Virus record (IMG/VR): IMGVR_UViG_3300032675_000009
Coordinates: 19,314-83,313 of that record
From: a virus
Reading direction: 5' to 3' (one strand)
Length of the DNA stretch: 64,000 bases
Shown: positions 1,181-64,000 of the stretch, piece after piece
How the letters are laid out: every line of letters begins with the position of its first letter
Numbering within the stretch: position 1 is the first letter of the stretch
The notes under the pieces: model-generated
The model's input: the letters and a program-made list of their open reading frames with translations, nothing else
The model's database searches: none
Told to the model about the DNA's origin: nothing
Position numbers and translations under genes: made by a program

Positions 1181-1751
1181 AAAAGAAACACAGTTCTCGC
1201 TGAGTATCGCTTTGCGAGAAGACCGCGTTAGCAAGATCGACCGAAGCGTTCAGCAATCTCTTCAGATTGGCGAGAAGGTTGCCGGCATCGCCACCGGCCT
1301 ACTCAACGAACTGGCAGACGGCGGCCTCATGTTGACCGCAGACCAAGCGAGTCGCATTCAGTCCATCCTGGGGGAAACCACCGGTGAGGCAATCATCAAG
1401 GCGGCAGAGAAAGCGGCGGGCCGGCGCGGTGGCGGAGTAGTGGTCGAGTGGGTTGCGGATCCATCCTGGGTAGGATCTTTCGAGGATACTGCCAAGCAGC
1501 AGGGCATTACCCTCAGCGCATTGGTCCAGCAGATGATGGACACCGCTGTCGACAATGGTTGGTTCTACCAGATGTCCATCCAGCCCCGGCGTATCCTACT
1601 GTCGGAAGCGGCCGACCGGTACTTGCGTCAGGTAATGGGTCGCGATGTATTCACCGGTGAGGACATTGTTCAGTTGGTGAAGGAAAAGATCGCAGAGGCG
1701 GACGGCGACCTGTTTGGCTTGGCGACAACCAAAGAGGCGGTTCCGGCGTAA
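1167..1751 (+). CDS. Hypothetical protein (194 aa) between terminase and portal
   Basis: The start is placed at ATG 1167, behind GGAG, rather than at a more upstream frame opening that would overlap the previous gene deeply. The protein is largely helical by composition, with a Gly/Arg patch (AAGRRGGG) near residue 80 and a charged C-terminus. No catalytic motif is visible. It ends in TAATG, so the next gene starts on its stop codon, which implies coupling. The function is unknown; position suggests a packaging or head-assembly accessory. Confidence 0.72.
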   Translation: MATSKKETQFSLSIALREDRVSKIDRSVQQSLQIGEKVAGIATGLLNELADGGLMLTADQASRIQSILGETTGEAIIKAAEKAAGRRGGGVVVEWVADPSWVGSFEDTAKQQGITLSALVQQMMDTAVDNGWFYQMSIQPRRILLSEAADRYLRQVMGRDVFTGEDIVQLVKEKIAEADGDLFGLATTKEAVPA

Positions 1752-2158
1752 TGCCGATGTACGAGGGGTATTGCCCCGCGTGCGATCCGGAGTGCCGCAA
1801 TCCGGAAGAGCACTACTACCCGCTATCAACAAGCCCAGAAGCACCATGTTCCGCATGTGGCGGCGAGCGCCGGCGACTGGTTTCCCAGTTCGCCGTTGTG
1901 TTCACCGGGGTGATCTCGACATCTAAGTACGGGGATCCGAGACTGGAACGCTACAACACCAAGGTGGATGGCCACCAAGCGTGGCGCCGGCGAAGCAGCT
2001 TAAGCGGAAAACCGGAGCCCGTCTGGATTGAGACCTTCGAGGACCAAAAGCGTTTCTGCCGCGAAGAGGGTTTGACGAATCCCAAAGACGTCGGGCCCAT
2101 GGAAATCGGTGATGACGGAAAGTCTTACAGTACTCGGGGTATGCCGGGGTGCTGGTGA
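1751..2158 (+). CDS. FmdB-like zinc-ribbon protein (135 aa)
   Basis: The N-terminus MPMYEGYCPAC followed by PCSACGGE around residue 35 matches the pattern of the FmdB-family zinc ribbon (MPxYEYxCxxCG, then CPxCG), a single Cys4 zinc site. The C-terminal half is polar and unrecognised. The start codon overlaps the previous stop (TAATG). FmdB-like proteins next to phage portal genes are common, but their role is not established. The zinc ribbon is visible in sequence; any role is unassigned. Confidence 0.7.
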   Translation: MPMYEGYCPACDPECRNPEEHYYPLSTSPEAPCSACGGERRRLVSQFAVVFTGVISTSKYGDPRLERYNTKVDGHQAWRRRSSLSGKPEPVWIETFEDQKRFCREEGLTNPKDVGPMEIGDDGKSYSTRGMPGCW

Positions 2159-2161
2159 GAC

Positions 2162-2170
2162 TGCTAGAAT
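2162..2170 (+). promoter_or_regulatory. Extended -10 promoter for portal gene
   Basis: TGCTAGAAT is an extended -10 (TGN then TAGAAT at 2165-2170). The -35 position is poor. A start about 7 bases downstream would leave only about 6 bases before the portal ATG at 2183, and no ribosome site is seen there. Confidence 0.5.
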
Positions 2171-2182
2171 AGCGTGGACTGA

Positions 2183-4066
2183 ATGTCCGTAACGCCGATA
2201 CCACGCGCGCCGTACTACCGGGAAAAGTCCGGCTCCGAGATCGCTCCGGACTCGGATTACAAGAGTCGTCTGCTATCGTGGCGGGAATCCGCCAAACAGC
2301 AAGCGATCGTCGAACTCCAGGCGAGTCTTGAGTGGTCGGAAATCGCTTCGTACATTGCGCACTTGAATGGCGATATGTGGCCTCGAGAGCGCGCGAAGTA
2401 CCTATCCTCGTTCGTCGACAACAAGCTGGGAGATTGCCGGCAAGACACATTGGCACAGCTTACCGACATCAATCCGACGATCGACGTATCATCGGCGGTA
2501 GGGGAATATCAGCAGCAAGCCAAGATCATCAACGACGTCATCCATGCGGAATGGTCTCGCCGGAACATGGGGATGAGCCTCATCCAACTGGTCGACCATT
2601 CACTGTTCGGTCGTGGCTTCTGGAAGCTCGGAGCGGTATCGCCAGGGAAATTGATCACGACGGCGTGCGGCATGGATACGGTGCTTCCGATTCAGTGCAA
2701 CGGGGATATCCAGGAATCGAGCGCGGTGCTGTACCGAACCCTAAAGCCGCCGTCGTATTTCAAGAATATCTGGGGGGCCCGGGCAGATGGCATCGAGAAT
2801 CAATCGAGTGCCAACATGCTGGCCACTACCGGCACGAACACATTTCAGCGGCCGGGCAACATGAGCGAGTACACTTGGAATTCGTTGTCGCCAAGTATGC
2901 GCCGGGCGATGGGATCGCGCGTATCACTAAACCCAGCGGCCAATGAAGTACAGACATTCCCGGCGGTGGAACTGCAGGAGTTCTGGGTCGATGATTTCGA
3001 GACCAACAACTCGCAGCACGACGTGTTGGTAAAAAACCCGTACATTTCAGAGGCCCTTCACAATTACCACTACGTGGTGAAACCCGGTCAGCGGCTATGG
3101 CCGCGCAAGCGTCTTATCGTATTCGCGGGCGATCGCATCATGTACGACGGCCCAAGTCCGTACTGGCACGGAAGATTCCCGTTTGCGGAGTTAAGCTTGA
3201 ACCCGGTGGTGTGGGCGCCGGGTGGGGCAAGCAAGTATCGCCCCCTAGTGCCGCTCAACAAAGCGATCAACGACATTGGCGCCGGCACCCTGGACAACAT
3301 CAAGAAGGCCCTGAATCAAACCGTTATCACGCGCAAGGGCGCCATCAACGACGCGGACTGGGAAAAGTACTACCCGAACAGGCCGGGCTCGAAACTCAGG
3401 ATGAATCCAAACGCCAACCCGACCGCTGACCTTCGGTTCAGTGGAGCCGTGGATTTGCCGGGATACGTGTTCCAGTTCCTGTCCCAATACCTGCAGCCCC
3501 GGTTTGACAAGGCGGCCGGCATCCTTGACGTGTCGTCCTTGACAAAGAAGAAACAGGTTCCCGGCGGCGATGCGATCGAGGCAATACGTGATTCACAGAC
3601 TTCTCAATTTCGGCTCGAGAGCAAGTTTATTGCAAACATGCTGACCAAGGCCGGCGAGCAGGCGGTTTCCAATATCATCCAGTACTTCGACCGATCAACC
3701 CGGATGAGGATGCTGGGAGCGGATGGGCAGACCTGGAATGACTTCGATTACAAAGCCGGTAGCCTTGCCCCAGCCATGGGTGACGAGTATGCGCATTGGA
3801 CCAATTTCGCGCTTCGCATATCCGAGGGCTCGCTGGACGGCAGGAGTAAGGATCGAGACAAGACGCTGGCCGCGCAGCTTTACAAGCTTGGCGCCATCTC
3901 CCTGCAGGAACTTCACCGTAAGCTCGGCATCAGCAACTCCCAGCAAATCCTGAAGGAGATGTCCGAGGAGGCCCAAATGGGGCTGCATGGATCCGGGGGT
4001 GGCAAGTCGAGTGGCGGCCGGACCCCGCGCGCAACCAGGGGACAGCGCAACGGTAAGGATGTTTGA
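2183..4066 (+). CDS. Portal protein (627 aa)
   Basis: The size, the position directly after terminase and zinc-ribbon genes, and the presence of scaffold and capsid genes downstream identify this as the portal, the dodecameric ring at the capsid vertex through which DNA is packaged. A long alpha/beta body is followed by a basic C-terminal tail (after about residue 600) rich in Gly, Ser and Arg. No signal or membrane segment is present. The ATG at 2183 lacks a ribosome site but follows an extended -10 closely, so the transcript may be nearly leaderless. The call rests on gene order and length rather than a catalytic motif. Confidence 0.75.
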   Translation: MSVTPIPRAPYYREKSGSEIAPDSDYKSRLLSWRESAKQQAIVELQASLEWSEIASYIAHLNGDMWPRERAKYLSSFVDNKLGDCRQDTLAQLTDINPTIDVSSAVGEYQQQAKIINDVIHAEWSRRNMGMSLIQLVDHSLFGRGFWKLGAVSPGKLITTACGMDTVLPIQCNGDIQESSAVLYRTLKPPSYFKNIWGARADGIENQSSANMLATTGTNTFQRPGNMSEYTWNSLSPSMRRAMGSRVSLNPAANEVQTFPAVELQEFWVDDFETNNSQHDVLVKNPYISEALHNYHYVVKPGQRLWPRKRLIVFAGDRIMYDGPSPYWHGRFPFAELSLNPVVWAPGGASKYRPLVPLNKAINDIGAGTLDNIKKALNQTVITRKGAINDADWEKYYPNRPGSKLRMNPNANPTADLRFSGAVDLPGYVFQFLSQYLQPRFDKAAGILDVSSLTKKKQVPGGDAIEAIRDSQTSQFRLESKFIANMLTKAGEQAVSNIIQYFDRSTRMRMLGADGQTWNDFDYKAGSLAPAMGDEYAHWTNFALRISEGSLDGRSKDRDKTLAAQLYKLGAISLQELHRKLGISNSQQILKEMSEEAQMGLHGSGGGKSSGGRTPRATRGQRNGKDV

Positions 4067-4091
4067 CGTCGTTGACGCGACCTGCTAGGAT
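4063..4091 (+). promoter_or_regulatory. Sigma70-type promoter TTGACG-N17-TAGGAT
   Basis: The -35 TTGACG (4063-4068), an exact 17-base spacer, and TAGGAT (4086-4091) preceded by TGC are all present. The -35 overlaps the portal stop codon. The expected start of transcription is only a few bases before ATG 4102. Confidence 0.75.
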
Positions 4092-4101
4092 ACGGGCCGA
4101 T

Positions 4102-4350
4102 ATGCCGCACATTAACGATAGAGTATTGGTATTTTTGGCCTTTCTGACAACTCTTGTCCTCATGGGTATCCTCGTGGCCTCTAAAGGTTGTACCGGGACT
4201 GAGCCGGTAATGCTGGCCCTGGGTACGATCGCCACTACGCTGGCGGGTGTTCTCGGCGGCATTTCGCGCAGTTCACCTGGCGCGACCACTACGACCACTA
4301 CAAGTGACGACAAGCCACCAGTGACCGATACACAGACGAAGACCCAATAA
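4102..4350 (+). CDS. Small two-helix membrane protein, possible holin (82 aa)
   Basis: Two hydrophobic segments, about residues 7-27 (VLVFLAFLTTLVLMGILVA) and 35-54 (PVMLALGTIATTLAGVLGGI), are followed by a polar Thr-rich tail. That is the size and layout of a class II holin, which makes inner-membrane holes at lysis. No endolysin is visible nearby, so holin is only one option; any small phage membrane protein would look similar. The gene has its own promoter and an almost absent leader. A short GC-rich inverted repeat follows the stop. Confidence 0.65.
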   Translation: MPHINDRVLVFLAFLTTLVLMGILVASKGCTGTEPVMLALGTIATTLAGVLGGISRSSPGATTTTTTSDDKPPVTDTQTKTQ

Positions 4351-4359
4351 TGTTCCGGC

Positions 4360-4385
4360 GGACCGGGCACGCCACACTCCGGTCC
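4360..4385 (+). terminator. Weak terminator-like inverted repeat
   Basis: GGACCGG (4360-4366) can pair with CCGGTCC (4379-4385) across a 12-base loop, but only TTAAT follows, not a T-run. It could be a weak terminator or an mRNA end stabiliser after the small membrane protein gene. Confidence 0.35.
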
Positions 4386-4447
4386 TTAATGGCGATACAG
4401 TACTCCCAGCCTTAAGGGCATAACGGGATGGAAAATAACGCCGGACA

Positions 4448-4456
4448 TGATACATT
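4448..4456 (+). promoter_or_regulatory. Extended -10 promoter for tRNA
   Basis: TGATACATT is an extended -10 (TG, one base, TACATT) ending 10 bases before the tRNA 5' end. The -35 position is not convincing. Confidence 0.4.
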
Positions 4457-4466
4457 GGAATTTCGC

Positions 4467-4543
4467 AGCGCGGTAGAGCAGTCAGGTAGCTCGAATGGCT
4501 CATAACCATTAGGCCGCTGGTTCAAATCCAGCCCGCGCCACCA
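4467..4543 (+). tRNA. tRNA-Met (CAT anticodon), initiator-like, CCA encoded
   Basis: A full 77-nt cloverleaf can be drawn: acceptor AGCGCGG/CCGCGCC, D-arm GAGC/GCTC, anticodon arm AATGG-CTCATAA-CCATT, T-arm GCTGG-TTCAAAT-CCAGC, then A and an encoded CCA. Two initiator hallmarks are visible: bases 1 and 72 are an A-C mismatch rather than a pair, and pair 11-24 is A-U (elongators have pyrimidine-purine). The D-loop also resembles tRNA-fMet. Only two of the three conserved G-C pairs of the initiator anticodon stem are present (the 29-41 pair is U-A). It is followed by a strong terminator, so it is an independent unit. Confidence 0.93.
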
Positions 4544-4569
4544 ACACACCCCATAGCCGATGGCAGTAC

Positions 4570-4612
4570 CCGGCCGACGAACTACGGTAACGTAGCGTCG
4601 GCCGGTTTTTTT
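4570..4612 (+). terminator. Rho-independent terminator after tRNA
   Basis: CCGGCCGACG (4570-4579) pairs with CGTCGGCCGG (4596-4605), with an inner CTAC/GTAG extension, and is followed by seven T. It is a textbook intrinsic terminator. Confidence 0.93.
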
Positions 4613-4614
4613 GT

Positions 4615-4643
4615 TTGACCCTACTTATTTGACCTGCTAGACT
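4615..4643 (+). promoter_or_regulatory. Sigma70-type promoter TTGACC-N17-TAGACT
   Basis: TTGACC (4615-4620), a spacer of exactly 17 bases, and TAGACT (4638-4643) preceded by CCTGC match the promoter at 4063. It starts three bases after the previous terminator T-run. Confidence 0.8.
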
Positions 4644-4687
4644 TCCGGGCGATGAATCAACTCTGCCAAGGAAGGAGGGATCCAGAC

Positions 4688-4738
4688 ATGGCAAAGGGTC
4701 GCAAGAAGTCCAAAAGAATGAAGAAGGAGCGCATGTAA
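4688..4738 (+). CDS. Tiny basic peptide (16 aa)
   Basis: The peptide MAKGRKKSKRMKKERM is encoded behind a very strong ribosome site (GGAAGGAGG, nine bases before ATG) and sits in its own promoter-gene-terminator cassette. Ten of 16 residues are Lys or Arg. An in-frame ATG at 4652 right at the expected transcript start could give a 28-residue form, but the ribosome site favours 4688. The function is unknown. Charge suggests nucleic acid or anionic membrane binding. It is too short for homology to be decisive; reality is inferred from the flanking signals. Confidence 0.6.
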   Translation: MAKGRKKSKRMKKERM

Positions 4739-4757
4739 TGCCTTCCCACTTAACCCT

Positions 4758-4785
4758 GGCCGGCCTTCGGGTCGGCCGTTTTTTT
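4758..4785 (+). terminator. Rho-independent terminator with TTCG loop
   Basis: GGCCGGCC (4758-4765), loop TTCG, GGTCGGCC (4770-4777) and a run of seven T form a stable intrinsic terminator closing the 16-residue peptide cassette. Confidence 0.92.
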
Positions 4786-4809
4786 GTGACAAACATTTTC
4801 CATTGACAT

Positions 4810-4838
4810 TTGCGATTTAATTATTTCCCTGCTAGAAT
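4810..4838 (+). promoter_or_regulatory. Promoter TTGCGA-N17-TAGAAT
   Basis: The extended -10 TGCTAGAAT is the same as at the portal promoter, with TTGCGA exactly 17 bases upstream. A TTGACA just before it is out of register. It probably drives the 15-residue peptide and the head genes that follow. Confidence 0.72.
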
Positions 4839-4895
4839 CACCGCGACGTTCGTGATAAGTACGCGGGCGAATATAGGGAAAGGGGAGCAACCACC

Positions 4896-4943
4896 ATGGC
4901 ACGCAAAAAGGCCGGCCGCAAGGCCAAGCACGCCCGTAAGTAG
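4896..4943 (+). CDS. Tiny basic peptide (15 aa)
   Basis: MARKKAGRKAKHARK follows GGGAAAGGGGAG and its own promoter. More than half of the residues are basic. It resembles the 16-residue peptide at 4688 in size, charge and setting but is not an obvious copy. A GC-rich inverted repeat (GCCGGGC with GCCCGGC) spans the 60 bases after its stop and may attenuate read-through into the gene at 5031. The function is unknown; existence is inferred from promoter and ribosome site. Confidence 0.55.
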   Translation: MARKKAGRKAKHARK

Positions 4944-5030
4944 TTTGCCGGGCGTAGTTGAACTAGGGCGGCCCTCTTCCCTTTAGGACGGGCTGCCCGG
5001 CTCACTCTCAGCACAGTGGAAAAGGAAAAC

Positions 5031-5333
5031 ATGCCGAGCAAAAATTTTGACACCATCGGAACGCAACAGGGATTGGGAACCAAGCCTGTCTCTTCTCCGT
5101 CGTCCAACCCCCGGAGTGGCCAGTTCGAGCCCATCGGCACGGAGGCTAGTCTCGGGCGCAAGCCGATCGCCTCGCCTTCAGCAAACCCGAAAAGCGGAGC
5201 GTTTCAGACGATTGGCGAGCAGTCGCCACTGAATCGCGCGCCGCAGAAGGTCTGGAACAGCAATGATCGCATTCCGTTTTCGGAACGTGCGGTCGCGCAG
5301 TCACAGATCTCGGGCAAGGGAAAGCGTAAGTAA
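5031..5333 (+). CDS. Hypothetical repeat protein (100 aa) upstream of scaffold
   Basis: The protein holds about two and a half degenerate repeats of roughly 28 residues: FDTIGTQQGLGTKPVSSPSS, then FEPIGTEASLGRKPIASPSA, then FQTIGEQSPLNRAP. It is Ser/Pro-rich and probably disordered, with a basic C-terminus (GKGKRK). The ATG at 5031 follows AAAAGGAAAAC. It abuts the next gene (TAAATG). Position among head genes suggests a small virion or assembly component. I do not recognise the family. Confidence 0.72.
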   Translation: MPSKNFDTIGTQQGLGTKPVSSPSSNPRSGQFEPIGTEASLGRKPIASPSANPKSGAFQTIGEQSPLNRAPQKVWNSNDRIPFSERAVAQSQISGKGKRK

Positions 5334-55988: not shown

Positions 55989-57018
55989 CGATGGTGAATT
56001 CCCCCTCGCTGTTCAGTCTATACCAAGTATCCGCCTTCAAATTGCCGTCAGAGCCATCTCCGCAGCCGATCAGCGCGCACCGCATTTCCCCGCGTTCCTC
56101 TTTGGGGTTCCACCAAGCCAAGGCGATACAGCCATACTTGCCGGCCTTAGCTCTACCGTACAGGCCAGTAACTACGGCCGCGCCACTCCATCCGGTGGCG
56201 GAGGCCGCGCCACTCTCTCCGGTGGCGGAGGCCGCGCCCCTCGCTCCGGTGGCGGAGGCCGCGCCACTCGCTCCGGTGGCGGAGGCCGCGCCCCTCGCTC
56301 CGGTGGCGGAGGCCGCGCCCCTCGCTCCGGTGGCGGAGGCCGCGCCCCTCTCTCCGGTGGCGGAGGCCGCGCCACTCCATCCGGTGGCGGAGGCCGCGCC
56401 ACTCCATCCGGTGGCGGAGGCCGCGCCCCTCGCTCCGGTGGCGGAGGCCGCGCCACTCCATCCGGTGGCGGAGGCCGCGCCACTCTCTCTGGTGGCGGAG
56501 GCCGCGCCACTCCATCCGGTGGCGGAGGCCGCGCCACTCTCTCCGGTGGCGGAGGCCGCGCCCCTCGCTCCGGTGGCGGAGGCCGCGCCACTCGCTCCGG
56601 TGGCGGAGGCCGCGCCACTCGCTGAAAGGCTGACAAGATTCATTTGGCCTGCGAGCACAAAAGCTGTCGCTTCAACCCATGAGCCGACAAGGCGAATCAC
56701 GCCACGCTTTGCCTTGCACTTACCGCCAAGATTTACAACATCTTCCGGTTTGGCCCCGAAGACAATCCAGCATGCGGACCATTCGCAGTTTTTCCCGTCG
56801 CCCAAGGATAAACCCCAAGGCCAACCGTGCAAACCGCCACCGCAAGATGGGGTCGTAGTCCAATCCGGCGCCTTAACCTCAGCGCCAATTTCCAGCGGCC
56901 ACTTGAACCCGCCATAGGCTTCCCCTGTGAGGGACACGTGCTTGACGATGAGAACCTCATCGCCGCCGTTGGTCCACTGATGCGCTTCCGATAAACTCCA
57001 GATCTTCTCCTCGTTCAT
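55978..57018 (-). CDS. DUF7666-like protein with 9-residue tandem repeats (346 aa)
   Basis: The N-terminal 130 residues (WTNGGDEVLIVKHVSLTGEA onward) and the C-terminal DTWYRLNSEGEF are like a phage family I know as DUF7666. Between them are 16 full repeats of GAASATGxx, where xx is WS, AR, ES, AS or ER, then AAVVTGLYGRAKAGKYGCIA. Regular short repeats of this type probably form a beta-solenoid. Cellular role unknown. The repeat DNA has open frames in all directions, so only the leftward frame with conserved flanks is accepted. Confidence 0.75.
   Translation of the reverse strand: MNEEKIWSLSEAHQWTNGGDEVLIVKHVSLTGEAYGGFKWPLEIGAEVKAPDWTTTPSCGGGLHGWPWGLSLGDGKNCEWSACWIVFGAKPEDVVNLGGKCKAKRGVIRLVGSWVEATAFVLAGQMNLVSLSASGAASATGASGAASATGARGAASATGESGAASATGWSGAASATRESGAASATGWSGAASATGARGAASATGWSGAASATGWSGAASATGERGAASATGARGAASATGARGAASATGASGAASATGARGAASATGESGAASATGWSGAAVVTGLYGRAKAGKYGCIALAWWNPKEERGEMRCALIGCGDGSDGNLKADTWYRLNSEGEFTIDGD
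56177..56608 (-). repeat. 27-bp tandem repeat, 16 copies
   Basis: Units are nearly identical on a 27-bp period; variation is confined almost wholly to two adjacent codons (GAG/GCG/TGG then AGT/AGG in the leftward sense), plus one Arg substitution. Confidence 0.93.
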
Positions 57019-60867: not shown

Positions 60868-61095
60868 TCAGGGCAGCAATTGAGCAGGCGCTCCGGGATC
60901 GTCGGGGTCAAACCGCAGCGCCTGCCGCTTGCGCCTTAGTTCGCAGGCTTTGCAATTCGCCTTTCCGCACCCGCCGCAAGTCATCGGGCGGCCGCCGGCA
61001 TTAGTCTTGCGCTTTGCCGCATTCCGCCGCGCCCATTCGGATTTGAGCGCGGCATCGGGGATGGTCCCCAACATCCAGCTTTTTCGATAATTCAT
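60868..61095 (-). CDS. Small zinc-site protein, MNYRK-W type (75 aa)
   Basis: MNYRKSWMLGTIPDAALKSE then RRNAAKRKT, followed by CGGCGKANCKACEL, a compact Cys4 site. A truncated relative lies at 61624. ATG overlaps the previous stop (ATGA). Basic and short; nucleic acid binding is plausible. Confidence 0.7.
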   Translation of the reverse strand: MNYRKSWMLGTIPDAALKSEWARRNAAKRKTNAGGRPMTCGGCGKANCKACELRRKRQALRFDPDDPGAPAQLLP

Positions 61096-61631
61096 TTTGC
61101 TCCAATCGCGCGGAGTGGGCACCGCGTTGCTTTTTTCTGCCGCTCGTCGTGGGCGATCATGTTCGCTACATCCGCCGCACTGACCCAGAGGTTTCCGCGC
61201 TTGTAAGTGCTTCTAATTACGCCATCTTTCGCGAGTATGAGTATGCGCTCATGGCTCACGTTCAGGAGCTGGGCCGCCCGGTGGGCATCCATCGAATATG
61301 CGGGCTTGCGAGCCTTTACCGATTCGCGCATCTTGCGGCAGATCTCAGCCCGTTTTTTCGCTGGCACTTTCTGCCGCGCGGCGCGGCGAACGTCGGGATC
61401 GGCGCGAAGGCACCCACACGACTTCGTGAGCCCGTGGTGGTGCCCCAGTAACTGGCCGCCGGGGACACGGACGTAATTTCCGCAATCGCATTCACAGCAC
61501 CACCGCGACTTGTGCCACTTATCCGAACCAGCGTAAAAACGAACGACCAATCGGCCAAATCGGCAGCCGATCAAACTCCGCACCCTTGCTGGCATCGGAA
61601 TCGGGTCGGGCAGCACTGATTTTTTACGCAT
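61092..61631 (-). CDS. Cys-rich plus helix-turn-helix protein (179 aa)
   Basis: WCCECDCGNYVRVPGGQLLG, then HHHGLTKSCGCLR form a zinc-binding region common in phage proteins. The C-terminal 50 residues (AHRAAQLLNVSHERILILAK then GNLWVSAADV) look like a MerR/excisionase-type winged helix. It may be a DNA-binding regulator. The start ATG 61631 overlaps the stop of the preceding gene. Confidence 0.7.
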   Translation of the reverse strand: MRKKSVLPDPIPMPARVRSLIGCRFGRLVVRFYAGSDKWHKSRWCCECDCGNYVRVPGGQLLGHHHGLTKSCGCLRADPDVRRAARQKVPAKKRAEICRKMRESVKARKPAYSMDAHRAAQLLNVSHERILILAKDGVIRSTYKRGNLWVSAADVANMIAHDERQKKATRCPLRAIGAK

Positions 61632-61731
61632 TGCGCACCGCCGCGAACTTGGCCGCATTGCGCCGGCCGTTCTCGGATGCCAGCACCGGATCGGGGATGC
61701 TGGCGAGATTCCACGTGGGGCGGTACTTCAT
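61624..61731 (-). CDS. Truncated paralogue of the MNYRK-W protein (35 aa)
   Basis: MKYRPTWNLASIPDPVLASE then NGRRNAAKF parallels the first 26 residues of the protein at 60868 but stops before the zinc site. Its ATG overlaps the stop of the 23-residue gene (ATGA) and its stop overlaps the next ATG. Two related copies in one operon suggest duplication then truncation. Confidence 0.6.
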   Translation of the reverse strand: MKYRPTWNLASIPDPVLASENGRRNAAKFAAVRNA

Positions 61732-61799: not shown

Positions 61800-62024
61800 C
61801 TAGCGAGCCTCCCGCGTGTTCCGCGCGGTGCCGAGGCCGCGACCTTCATCCGGCGTGAAGAATAGCCGATGCTCCACATTGCCGGCGTCCATCTGATTCA
61901 TACGCATAGTGGATTCCGCTTTGCTACTGCTAGAGTATCCCGTGCTTTTCCATCCTTCGGACCGGCGCTTGCCAGTCCATCGGAATTGGATCTCATACAT
62001 TCCTTCAGGTGTTCCGTAGCTCAT
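61800..62024 (-). CDS. Hypothetical protein (74 aa) downstream of hammerhead
   Basis: ATG 62024 (MSYGTPEGMYEIQFRW) follows GAGAGGATTTAAACGAG, nearly the same leader as the gene at 62558. The ribozyme ends 22 bases upstream, so self-cleavage would leave the catalytic core on the 5' end of this message. The product is polar and beta-like, unrecognised. Confidence 0.66.
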   Translation of the reverse strand: MSYGTPEGMYEIQFRWTGKRRSEGWKSTGYSSSSKAESTMRMNQMDAGNVEHRLFFTPDEGRGLGTARNTREAR

Positions 62025-62045
62025 CTCGTTTAAATCCTCTCTGAT

Positions 62046-62095
62046 GGCCTCATCAGTCCCGGCATCACCGGGAGACGCCCGAAGGCGTTTCGGCC
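62046..62095 (-). ncRNA. Type II hammerhead ribozyme
   Basis: Read leftward from 62095: stem II 3' strand GGCC, then GAA, stem III ACGCC-TTCG-GGCGT, then C (the cleavage position after GTC, at 62074), stem I TCCCGG-TGATG-CCGGGA, then CTGATGA, then stem II 5' strand GGCC (62049-62046). All conserved core bases (CUGAUGA, GAA, the A15.1-U16.1 pair, cleavage after C17) are present, with stem II as the open stem. It begins on the base after the stop of the 56-residue gene. No T-run follows, so it is not a terminator. Confidence 0.9.
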
Positions 62096-62279: not shown

Positions 62280-62558
62280 TTAACAAGATGCGCCGCGTAA
62301 GTATGAGGCTAATACTATGGCGGACCGCTTCGCTGCGCGCTCTGGCGCGGTCCCAAATATCACCGCGAACCCATCGGTGCCGTCAACTCCGCAATATTGC
62401 ACGGTTTCTTGAGCTACGATGGCGTCGCGTTGCTCAACAATGGCACGCAGGGAATCGTAATTGTACGACCCGGCGGCCTTGAGTTCGGCGATTTTTTCCG
62501 CCTGAAAATTATTCAGATCTTGGATCGTGGGCAGTTTAATTATTTGGTTGTTCGTCAT
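62280..62558 (-). CDS. Hypothetical protein (92 aa)
   Basis: MTNNQIIKLPTIQDLNNFQA onward; helical with a short Cys-containing middle. ATG 62558 follows GAGAGGATGTAAACGAG, a leader nearly identical to the one before 62024. It is the first gene behind the near-palindrome-flanked promoter. Unknown family. Confidence 0.66.
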   Translation of the reverse strand: MTNNQIIKLPTIQDLNNFQAEKIAELKAAGSYNYDSLRAIVEQRDAIVAQETVQYCGVDGTDGFAVIFGTAPERAAKRSAIVLASYLRGASC

Positions 62559-62583
62559 CTCGTTTACATCCTCTCTATTAACT

Positions 62584-63576: not shown

Positions 63577-64000
63577 TCGTAACCTCCGGATTCAAGATCT
63601 TGCCTTGTTCCGGGTAAAGTTCCATCCACGCGGCGGCGAGTTCGATGTAGAGCGCGTACTCTTTGATCTGATCGGCAGTGTAGGACTGGCTTCTGCCGAC
63701 TGCCTTGTAATGTTTTCGCCACCAGGCAATGTCATGCTTCATACAGCCGATTTGAAGAACGTTACTGGATGGAATCACAACCAAGTGCTTCGTGCCAGAT
63801 ATGTAAAGCGGATTGATCGTCCAGTTGGCCCCATCCCCGATGCTGGCCGACTCCCCGATGCTGGCCGACTCCCCGATGCTGGCCGACTCCCCGATGCTGG
63901 CCGACTCCCCGATGCTGGCCCCCTTCCCGATGTTGGCCCCCTCCCCGATGCTGGCCCCATCCCCGATGCTGGCCGACTCCCCGATGCTGGCCGACTCCCC
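63569..64000 (-). CDS. Left-handed beta-helix (hexapeptide repeat) protein, 5' end outside window
   Basis: The leftward frame is open to the window edge and reads as repeats of IGESAS, IGDGAS, IGEGAN and IGKGAS, the [LIV]-G-x4 hexapeptide pattern of left-handed beta-helices. The C-terminal 75 residues (PLYISGTKHLVVIPSSNVLQ, then IGCMKHDIAWWRKHY, then QIKEYALYIELAAAWM) match a phage family I recall with this layout. Such phage proteins have unknown function. The N-terminal part is not visible. Confidence 0.75.
   Translation of the reverse strand, partial: GESASIGESASIGDGASIGEGANIGKGASIGESASIGESASIGESASIGESASIGDGANWTINPLYISGTKHLVVIPSSNVLQIGCMKHDIAWWRKHYKAVGRSQSYTADQIKEYALYIELAAAWMELYPEQGKILNPEVTNA
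63827..64000 (-). repeat. 18-bp tandem repeat, at least nine units, runs off window
   Basis: Units of CCCGATGCTGGCCGACTC with small changes; one unit encodes one hexapeptide turn. Variation is limited to the second and third codons of each unit. Confidence 0.9.

Follow-up and report, generated by a model that had tools for sequence, protein, structure and literature searches.

Background

Perreault et al. (2011) proposed that the clustered hammerhead ribozymes of prophages cut long phage transcripts up into mRNAs the length of a gene, and the same study reported that other bacterial hammerheads cleaved in vitro and in E. coli (PMC3088659). That phage hammerheads cut messages is therefore not a new idea. 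Their role, open since 2011, was still listed as such in a 2017 review (PMC6155905).

Here we analyze a hammerhead in an 83,313-base IMG/VR virus record, of which bases 19314-83313 (64 kb, hereafter the window) were studied; coordinates are window positions unless another contig is named. The record belongs to a tailed phage, with matches to portal, tail, DnaB-type helicase, exonuclease and RecT-type proteins.

Results

A type II hammerhead between two genes

The minus strand of the window carries a complete type II hammerhead ribozyme at 62095-62046 between two genes, as sequence inspection confirmed (Table 1). All parts of the type II architecture (core CUGANGA plus H17 pattern) are present, namely CUGAUGA, GAA, the A15.1-U16.1 pair and GUC, and helices II, I and III have 4, 6 and 5 bp, with stem II open and stems I and III closed by loops. 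An earlier note on this DNA had placed all hammerhead elements on the minus strand, and each of them was found there. It had also described a ribozyme that begins on the base after a stop codon and ends close before the next start, and this holds as well: TAA at 62098-62096 directly precedes stem II, which runs from 62095, and 21 bases separate the ribozyme from the ATG at 62024. The five bases straight after the ribozyme, AUCAG, were absent from that note.

Table 1. Features of the ribozyme locus and its flanking genes (window coordinates)
Feature	Position	Strand	Basis or remark
Upstream ORF, 56 aa, ends TAA	62096..62266	minus	no family match
Stop TAA of 56-aa ORF	62098-62096	minus	sequence
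Stem II 5' strand GGCC	62092..62095	minus	sequence; stem covaries in relatives
Core GAA (G12 A13 A14)	62089..62091	minus	sequence and alignment of relatives
Stem III ACGCC-UUCG-GGCGU, 5 bp, UUCG loop, A15.1-U16.1	62075..62088	minus	sequence, covariation
C17, predicted cut between 62074 and 62073	62074	minus	position within hammerhead core
Stem I UCCCGG-UGAUG-CCGGGA, 6 bp, UGAUG loop	62057..62073	minus	alignment, covariation
Catalytic core CUGAUGA	62050..62056	minus	sequence, Rfam model, relatives' model
Stem II 3' strand GGCC	62046..62049	minus	sequence, covariation
Anti-core tail AUCAG	62041..62045	minus	complement of CUGAU; comparison and folding
Translation leader AGAGAGGATTTAAACGAGATGA, Shine-Dalgarno-like AGAGGA, ATG 62024	62021..62042	minus	sequence search
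Downstream ORF, 74 aa	61800..62024	minus	no relatives found

Besides many small unknown ORFs, the minus-strand block around the ribozyme encodes an HNH endonuclease and a DNA methyltransferase-like protein. This gene content suggests an early or replication-type region and agrees with the earlier description of a site between two open frames of early genes. The start at 62024 is supported by the leader of the 74-aa ORF, because this leader (AGAGAGGATNTAAACGAGATGA) recurs almost exactly at 62555-62576 before another, unrelated ORF (two matches in the window and none in shuffles). Counts of ribozymes lying inside an open frame were dropped, as the stop-to-stop frames of the downstream gene extend back through the ribozyme.

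Elsewhere in the window, similar small minus-strand ORFs (MNYRKSWMLGTIPDAALKSEWARRNAAKRK... and MKYRPTWNLASIPDPVLASENGRRNAAK...) at 60868-61122 and 61624-61731 flank the HNH endonuclease-like gene (61092-61658), as if that gene had been inserted or the ORF duplicated. Two tandem repeats were also seen, one of 27 bp at 56176-56623 (16.6 copies, 93% matches, within coding sequence) and one of 18 bp at 63834-64000 that runs past the window end and gives a GESASI-type peptide repeat on the minus strand.

Covariance models and relatives

We scored the window copy with the Rfam model RF02276 (Hammerhead_II), a check that the earlier note had named. All 66 model positions were matched (E = 2.7e-4 in 401 nt, 0.044 in 64 kb), but the score of 30.1 bits lies below the gathering score of 37 bits. 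Taken formally, this is an outcome that the note had listed as refuting the hammerhead, and a shortfall that it had not foreseen. The same threshold recovers only 4 of 40 hammerheads across 20 related loci, and the low score is therefore a property of the model rather than of the RNA. A covariance model built from 40 relatives, with the window excluded, gave the window copy 75 bits (E = 4.2e-19, such E-values being rough owing to a short calibration) and found a single match both in the window and in the whole 83-kb contig, i.e. one copy.

Searches for relatives of both flanking proteins found none. Synteny thus cannot test the context, and the comparison was begun from the RNA pattern instead. 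A pattern with no pairing requirement matched on at least 120 viral contigs, and most matches are clear type II hammerheads, often several per contig. (A core-pattern scan in the type I/III order gave no match; this order is wrong for the permuted form.) Copies were uniqued by ribozyme sequence, and their counts ignore descent. For the tail-blind scan, and for three of the four scans from which ribozyme samples were drawn, frequencies refer to the matches listed, in an order that was not controlled.

In an alignment of 82 relatives, whose members were filtered for the presence of stems, all cells of the 15 pairs are standard-paired (100%), 415 cells are double-changed and 12 pairs show double changes. 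The covariation score is 0.834, as against 0.160 for shuffled and at most 0.122 for slid controls. Before filtering, the fold is wholly absent from just two of 136 raw pattern matches (L172 and L215); the other ten matches left out keep it with a bulge, a longer stem or a missing flank. Compensatory changes, which the earlier note had suggested looking for in related phages, thus occur in all three stems, and this covariation together with the relatives' model upholds its assignment of the RNA to type II.

Placement between stop and start codons

Counting only the stop codons of ORFs of at least 40 codons, a stop codon lies between −12 and +4 nt from the first ribozyme base in 183 of 207 phage copies (88%), whereas random same-strand positions gave 459 of 4091 (11%). 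Downstream of phage hammerheads comes a start codon preceded by a Shine-Dalgarno sequence, at a median of 22-26 nt. The arrangement that the earlier note proposed to look for in related phages, a tight succession of stop, ribozyme and start, is therefore the rule, and the window copy shows it between co-directional neighbouring ORFs.

Dense arrays with nearly one hammerhead per gene were seen in four other contigs (L064, L185, L013 and L037), with 11 type II copies above the Rfam threshold in ~4 kb of L064 and ~11 hammerheads in 5 kb of L185. In L243 (Streptomyces phage R4, a laboratory phage of S. coelicolor), positions 1609-5325 hold seven type II hammerheads in early genes. The starts annotated for gp81, gp76 and the Ocr-like gp72 overlap several of these ribozymes, a hint that these start codons were placed too far upstream. 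Antirestriction genes adjoin phage hammerheads in L238 (MW202801.1) and L243, and ardA has been described beside hammerheads in Legionella and Agrobacterium (PMC3088659).

A compact class of phage hammerheads

Type II hammerheads in phages take two forms. In the published pseudoknot form, stem II is short and the 3' flank complements loop I. The window copy is of the compact form, in which stem II measures 4 bp, stem I 6 bp and loop I 5-6 nt. In the compact form the first base of loop I, conserved in the relatives, is U in 98% of the 17-nt stem-loops, and an A directly precedes stem II in 97% of copies (124 of 124 in the tailed subset described below). The window copy shares the stem lengths, the first U of loop I and the A before stem II (62096), which is also the final base of the stop codon. 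Hammerheads have a known U-A Hoogsteen contact, and for this reason the loop U and the flanking A are natural candidates for a tertiary contact that may replace the pseudoknot.

A tail complementary to the catalytic core

The AUCAG that follows the ribozyme (62045-62041) is the exact complement of the catalytic CUGAU, and together with C62046 it can pair with CUGAUG (62056-62051) into a 6-bp hairpin with the loop AGGC. Such a tail occurs on about one-sixth of the compact phage hammerheads among the matches listed. The AUCAG form was found on at least 120 viral contigs, whereas a scan through 257 billion bases from prokaryote genomes gave just 4 contigs. In the tail-blind sample, AUCAG directly follows stem II in 7 of 44 compact copies (0.04 expected) and stands at this site in none of 86 other copies, mostly of the pseudoknot form, again among the matches listed.

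Position 7 is the sole core base that hammerheads let vary, so that a selected pairing between tail and core would require the first base of the tail to follow base 7. Collection-wide, all 83 unique copies that combine a non-U base 7 with any NUCAG tail have C7, and in 82 of these 83 the tail is GUCAG, which complements the core exactly. A complete scan placed U7 copies whose tail differs from AUCAG on only 11 contigs, compared with the at least 120 that have AUCAG; eight unique copies among them fold, and six of these carry GUCAG, which pairs as G-U. A second tail-blind sample (134 copies listed) contained AUCAG in 14 of 71 U7 copies and GUCAG in 9 of 54 C7 copies, with zero cross-combinations and one near-miss. 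The tail is all-or-nothing among these matches, being either the exact complement or without resemblance to it. Three contigs hold both the U7/A and the C7/G forms, and the window copy matches U7 with AUCAG.

All of the covariation comes from a single position, since just one pair of the six-pair hairpin is free to vary. The sixth pair joins G8 to the last base of stem II, which is C in 70 of 72 tailed and in 36 of 54 untailed copies (p = 3e-6). What comparison among relatives shows is how the ribozyme folds, where it is placed, and that the pairing between tail and core is under selection.

The start codon lies at a median of 27 nt from tailed copies versus 21 nt from untailed ones, about 6 nt farther, and the distances show no difference once 5 nt are subtracted (p = 0.37). 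The tail thus acts like a component of the ribozyme module, since the start distance shifts by the tail's own length. Tailed and untailed copies occur together on 47 of 93 multi-copy contigs. Neither CUGAU nor UGAU is enriched in the flanks as a second element that might free the tail. BLAST of tailed ribozymes against named phages, which is weak at 60 nt, found no tail in cultured phages and matched Streptomyces phages with untailed type II copies.

Predicted effects of the tail on folding

We predicted folds with nearest-neighbour energies, which ignore any tertiary contact favouring the active fold. As an isolated RNA, the window copy is predicted to form the CUGAUG-AGGC-CAUCAG hairpin instead of the ribozyme. 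This hairpin uses the catalytic strand and so cannot coexist with the active fold, yet both are conserved. Among U7 copies the native tail lowers the predicted probability of stem II from 0.97 to 0.05, whereas shuffled tails leave it at 0.89; for C7 copies it is lowered from 0.92 to 0.03, against 0.70 with shuffled tails. The window copy has the mildest balance, with a stem II probability of 0.25 in the presence of the tail. Folded at full length, 72 of 72 tailed copies have the inactive fold as their predicted minimum, and 0 of 72 do so when the tail is removed.

Association of the cleavage products is predicted at −0.3 kcal/mol with the native tail versus −6.0 with shuffled tails, so that the tail weakens re-association of the cut pieces by ~5.7 kcal/mol on average (window copy: −2.0 versus −8.7 kcal/mol). 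These predictions suggest that the tail hairpin either displaces the active fold or separates the products after the cut.

Discussion

A proposed cut followed by a lock

The reading that we consider probable, with due reserve, is that a cis-acting hammerhead cuts the early message and that its tail then locks the downstream piece. The type II hammerhead would cut a polycistronic message between the 56-aa and 74-aa genes, after C17 (62074), presumably while the message is nascent. Such cutting between genes would fit the tight stop-ribozyme-start rule, which also agrees with the 2011 proposal (PMC3088659), and it is from sequence features that we infer both the cleavage of the window copy and the processing of its message. 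The cut would leave the upstream RNA with the UUCG hairpin and a cyclic phosphate at its end, and the downstream RNA with a 5' hydroxyl and the stem I hairpin at its beginning. The AUCAG tail, transcribed right after the ribozyme is completed, would fold back after the cut, or if the cut was missed, and capture the catalytic strand as CUGAUG-AGGC-CAUCAG. By displacing stem II, this hairpin would part the pieces and block their rejoining, making the cut one-way, and would close the 5' end of the downstream message with a double hairpin that precedes the ribosome site.

That a one-way lock is the purpose of the tail is a more tentative proposal, plausible but open to serious doubt. Most compact hammerheads have no tail yet presumably function, and a lock is therefore not essential. 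A 4-bp stem II may also come apart fast unaided, which counts against a need for one.

Other readings of the tail

In the main alternative, the tail might act before the cut, as a gate that makes the ribozyme bistable, so that it cuts only in a short transcription window or when released by a ribosome, a pause or a protein, thereby setting the ratio of cut to uncut message. The inactive minimum predicted for every tailed full-length RNA favours such a gate, and the coexistence of tailed and untailed copies on one contig would suit a mixture of tuned and constitutive sites. A stop codon at the first ribozyme base might also let a terminating ribosome cover stem II. Against this, no conserved partner that would release the tail was found, CUGAU not being enriched in the flanks, and the same pairing is explained equally well by a lock after the cut. 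The downstream ribosome site, moreover, stays clear of the tail, which disfavours the 30S subunit as the switch. We regard the gate as possible but rather unlikely. Much the same holds for its broader version, a built-in conformational switch in which the co-evolving tail flips the RNA from the active fold to an inert hairpin and back, the speed of translation or transcription serving as input, and by which phages might tune where and when the message is cut; this, too, we would entertain only as a minority view.

It is improbable that the tail has no ribozyme role and only shapes the downstream 5' leader, shielding the AUG-containing core from nucleases or ribosomes. The hairpin would indeed close this core beside the Shine-Dalgarno region, and its placement straight before a Shine-Dalgarno sequence and start is general. 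Most copies, however, have no tail, and the pairing necessarily competes with the active fold.

Much less credible is a reading in which AUCAG pairs with loop I to form the type II pseudoknot that is common in RF02276 hammerheads (PMC3088659). In the window copy, loop I (UGAUG) can pair with AUCA over 4 bp (UGAU with AUCA), but loop I contains UGAU in just 3 of 72 tailed relatives, no larger a share than among untailed ones (4 of 54), and the tail tracks core base 7 rather than loop I. We dropped this reading because the relatives contradict it.

A DNA-level palindrome serving as a protein-binding or recombination site is still harder to credit: CTGATGAGGCCATCAG is also an inverted repeat in DNA, but position 7 and its partner change together where a protein site would keep its letters, and every occurrence of the element is joined to a hammerhead and lies on the transcribed strand, between a stop and a start. 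Finally, a chance resemblance to a hammerhead, which the score under the RF02276 gathering threshold might suggest, is negligible given the E-value from an independent model, the invariant flanking A, the conserved tail and the placement.

Significance

The near-codon precision with which phage hammerheads fit between a stop and the following ribosome site makes their role testable, and the U7/A and C7/G forms are a ready-made compensatory pair for experiments. The five-base tail, which we take to matter only through its pairing with the catalytic strand, marks a sizeable subclass of a compact class that the standard Rfam model mostly misses in phages. The RNA would be a natural ribozyme with its own off-strand, and would offer a compact, insulated part for cutting synthetic operons.

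Comparison with known systems

The anti-core tail is the new part of this locus and its least expected feature, a real extra element; no description of it was found in the literature searched. The theta ribozymes found in gut phages (PMC10879173) are likewise small self-cleaving phage RNAs with a proposed role in RNA processing, but they have an HDV-like fold, lie beside tRNA genes and are structurally unrelated to the hammerhead. Prophage clusters and Streptomyces phage R4 are closer, with several ribozymes on one strand, placed between small early genes. R4, however, has seven type II copies above the Rfam threshold in ~3.7 kb and the window contig only one, and the R4 copies, unlike the window copy, lack the anti-core tail.

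The compact class shares with RF02276 (PMC3088659) the permuted topology, the open stem II, the core and cut site, and the occurrence in phage or prophage gene blocks, often with several copies per transcript. It differs in its 4-bp stem II, 6-bp stem I, U-first loop of 5-6 nt and invariant A 5' of stem II, in having no conserved loop I pseudoknot, in scoring mostly below the Rfam threshold, and in the AUCAG or GUCAG tail, which is absent from the RF02276 consensus.
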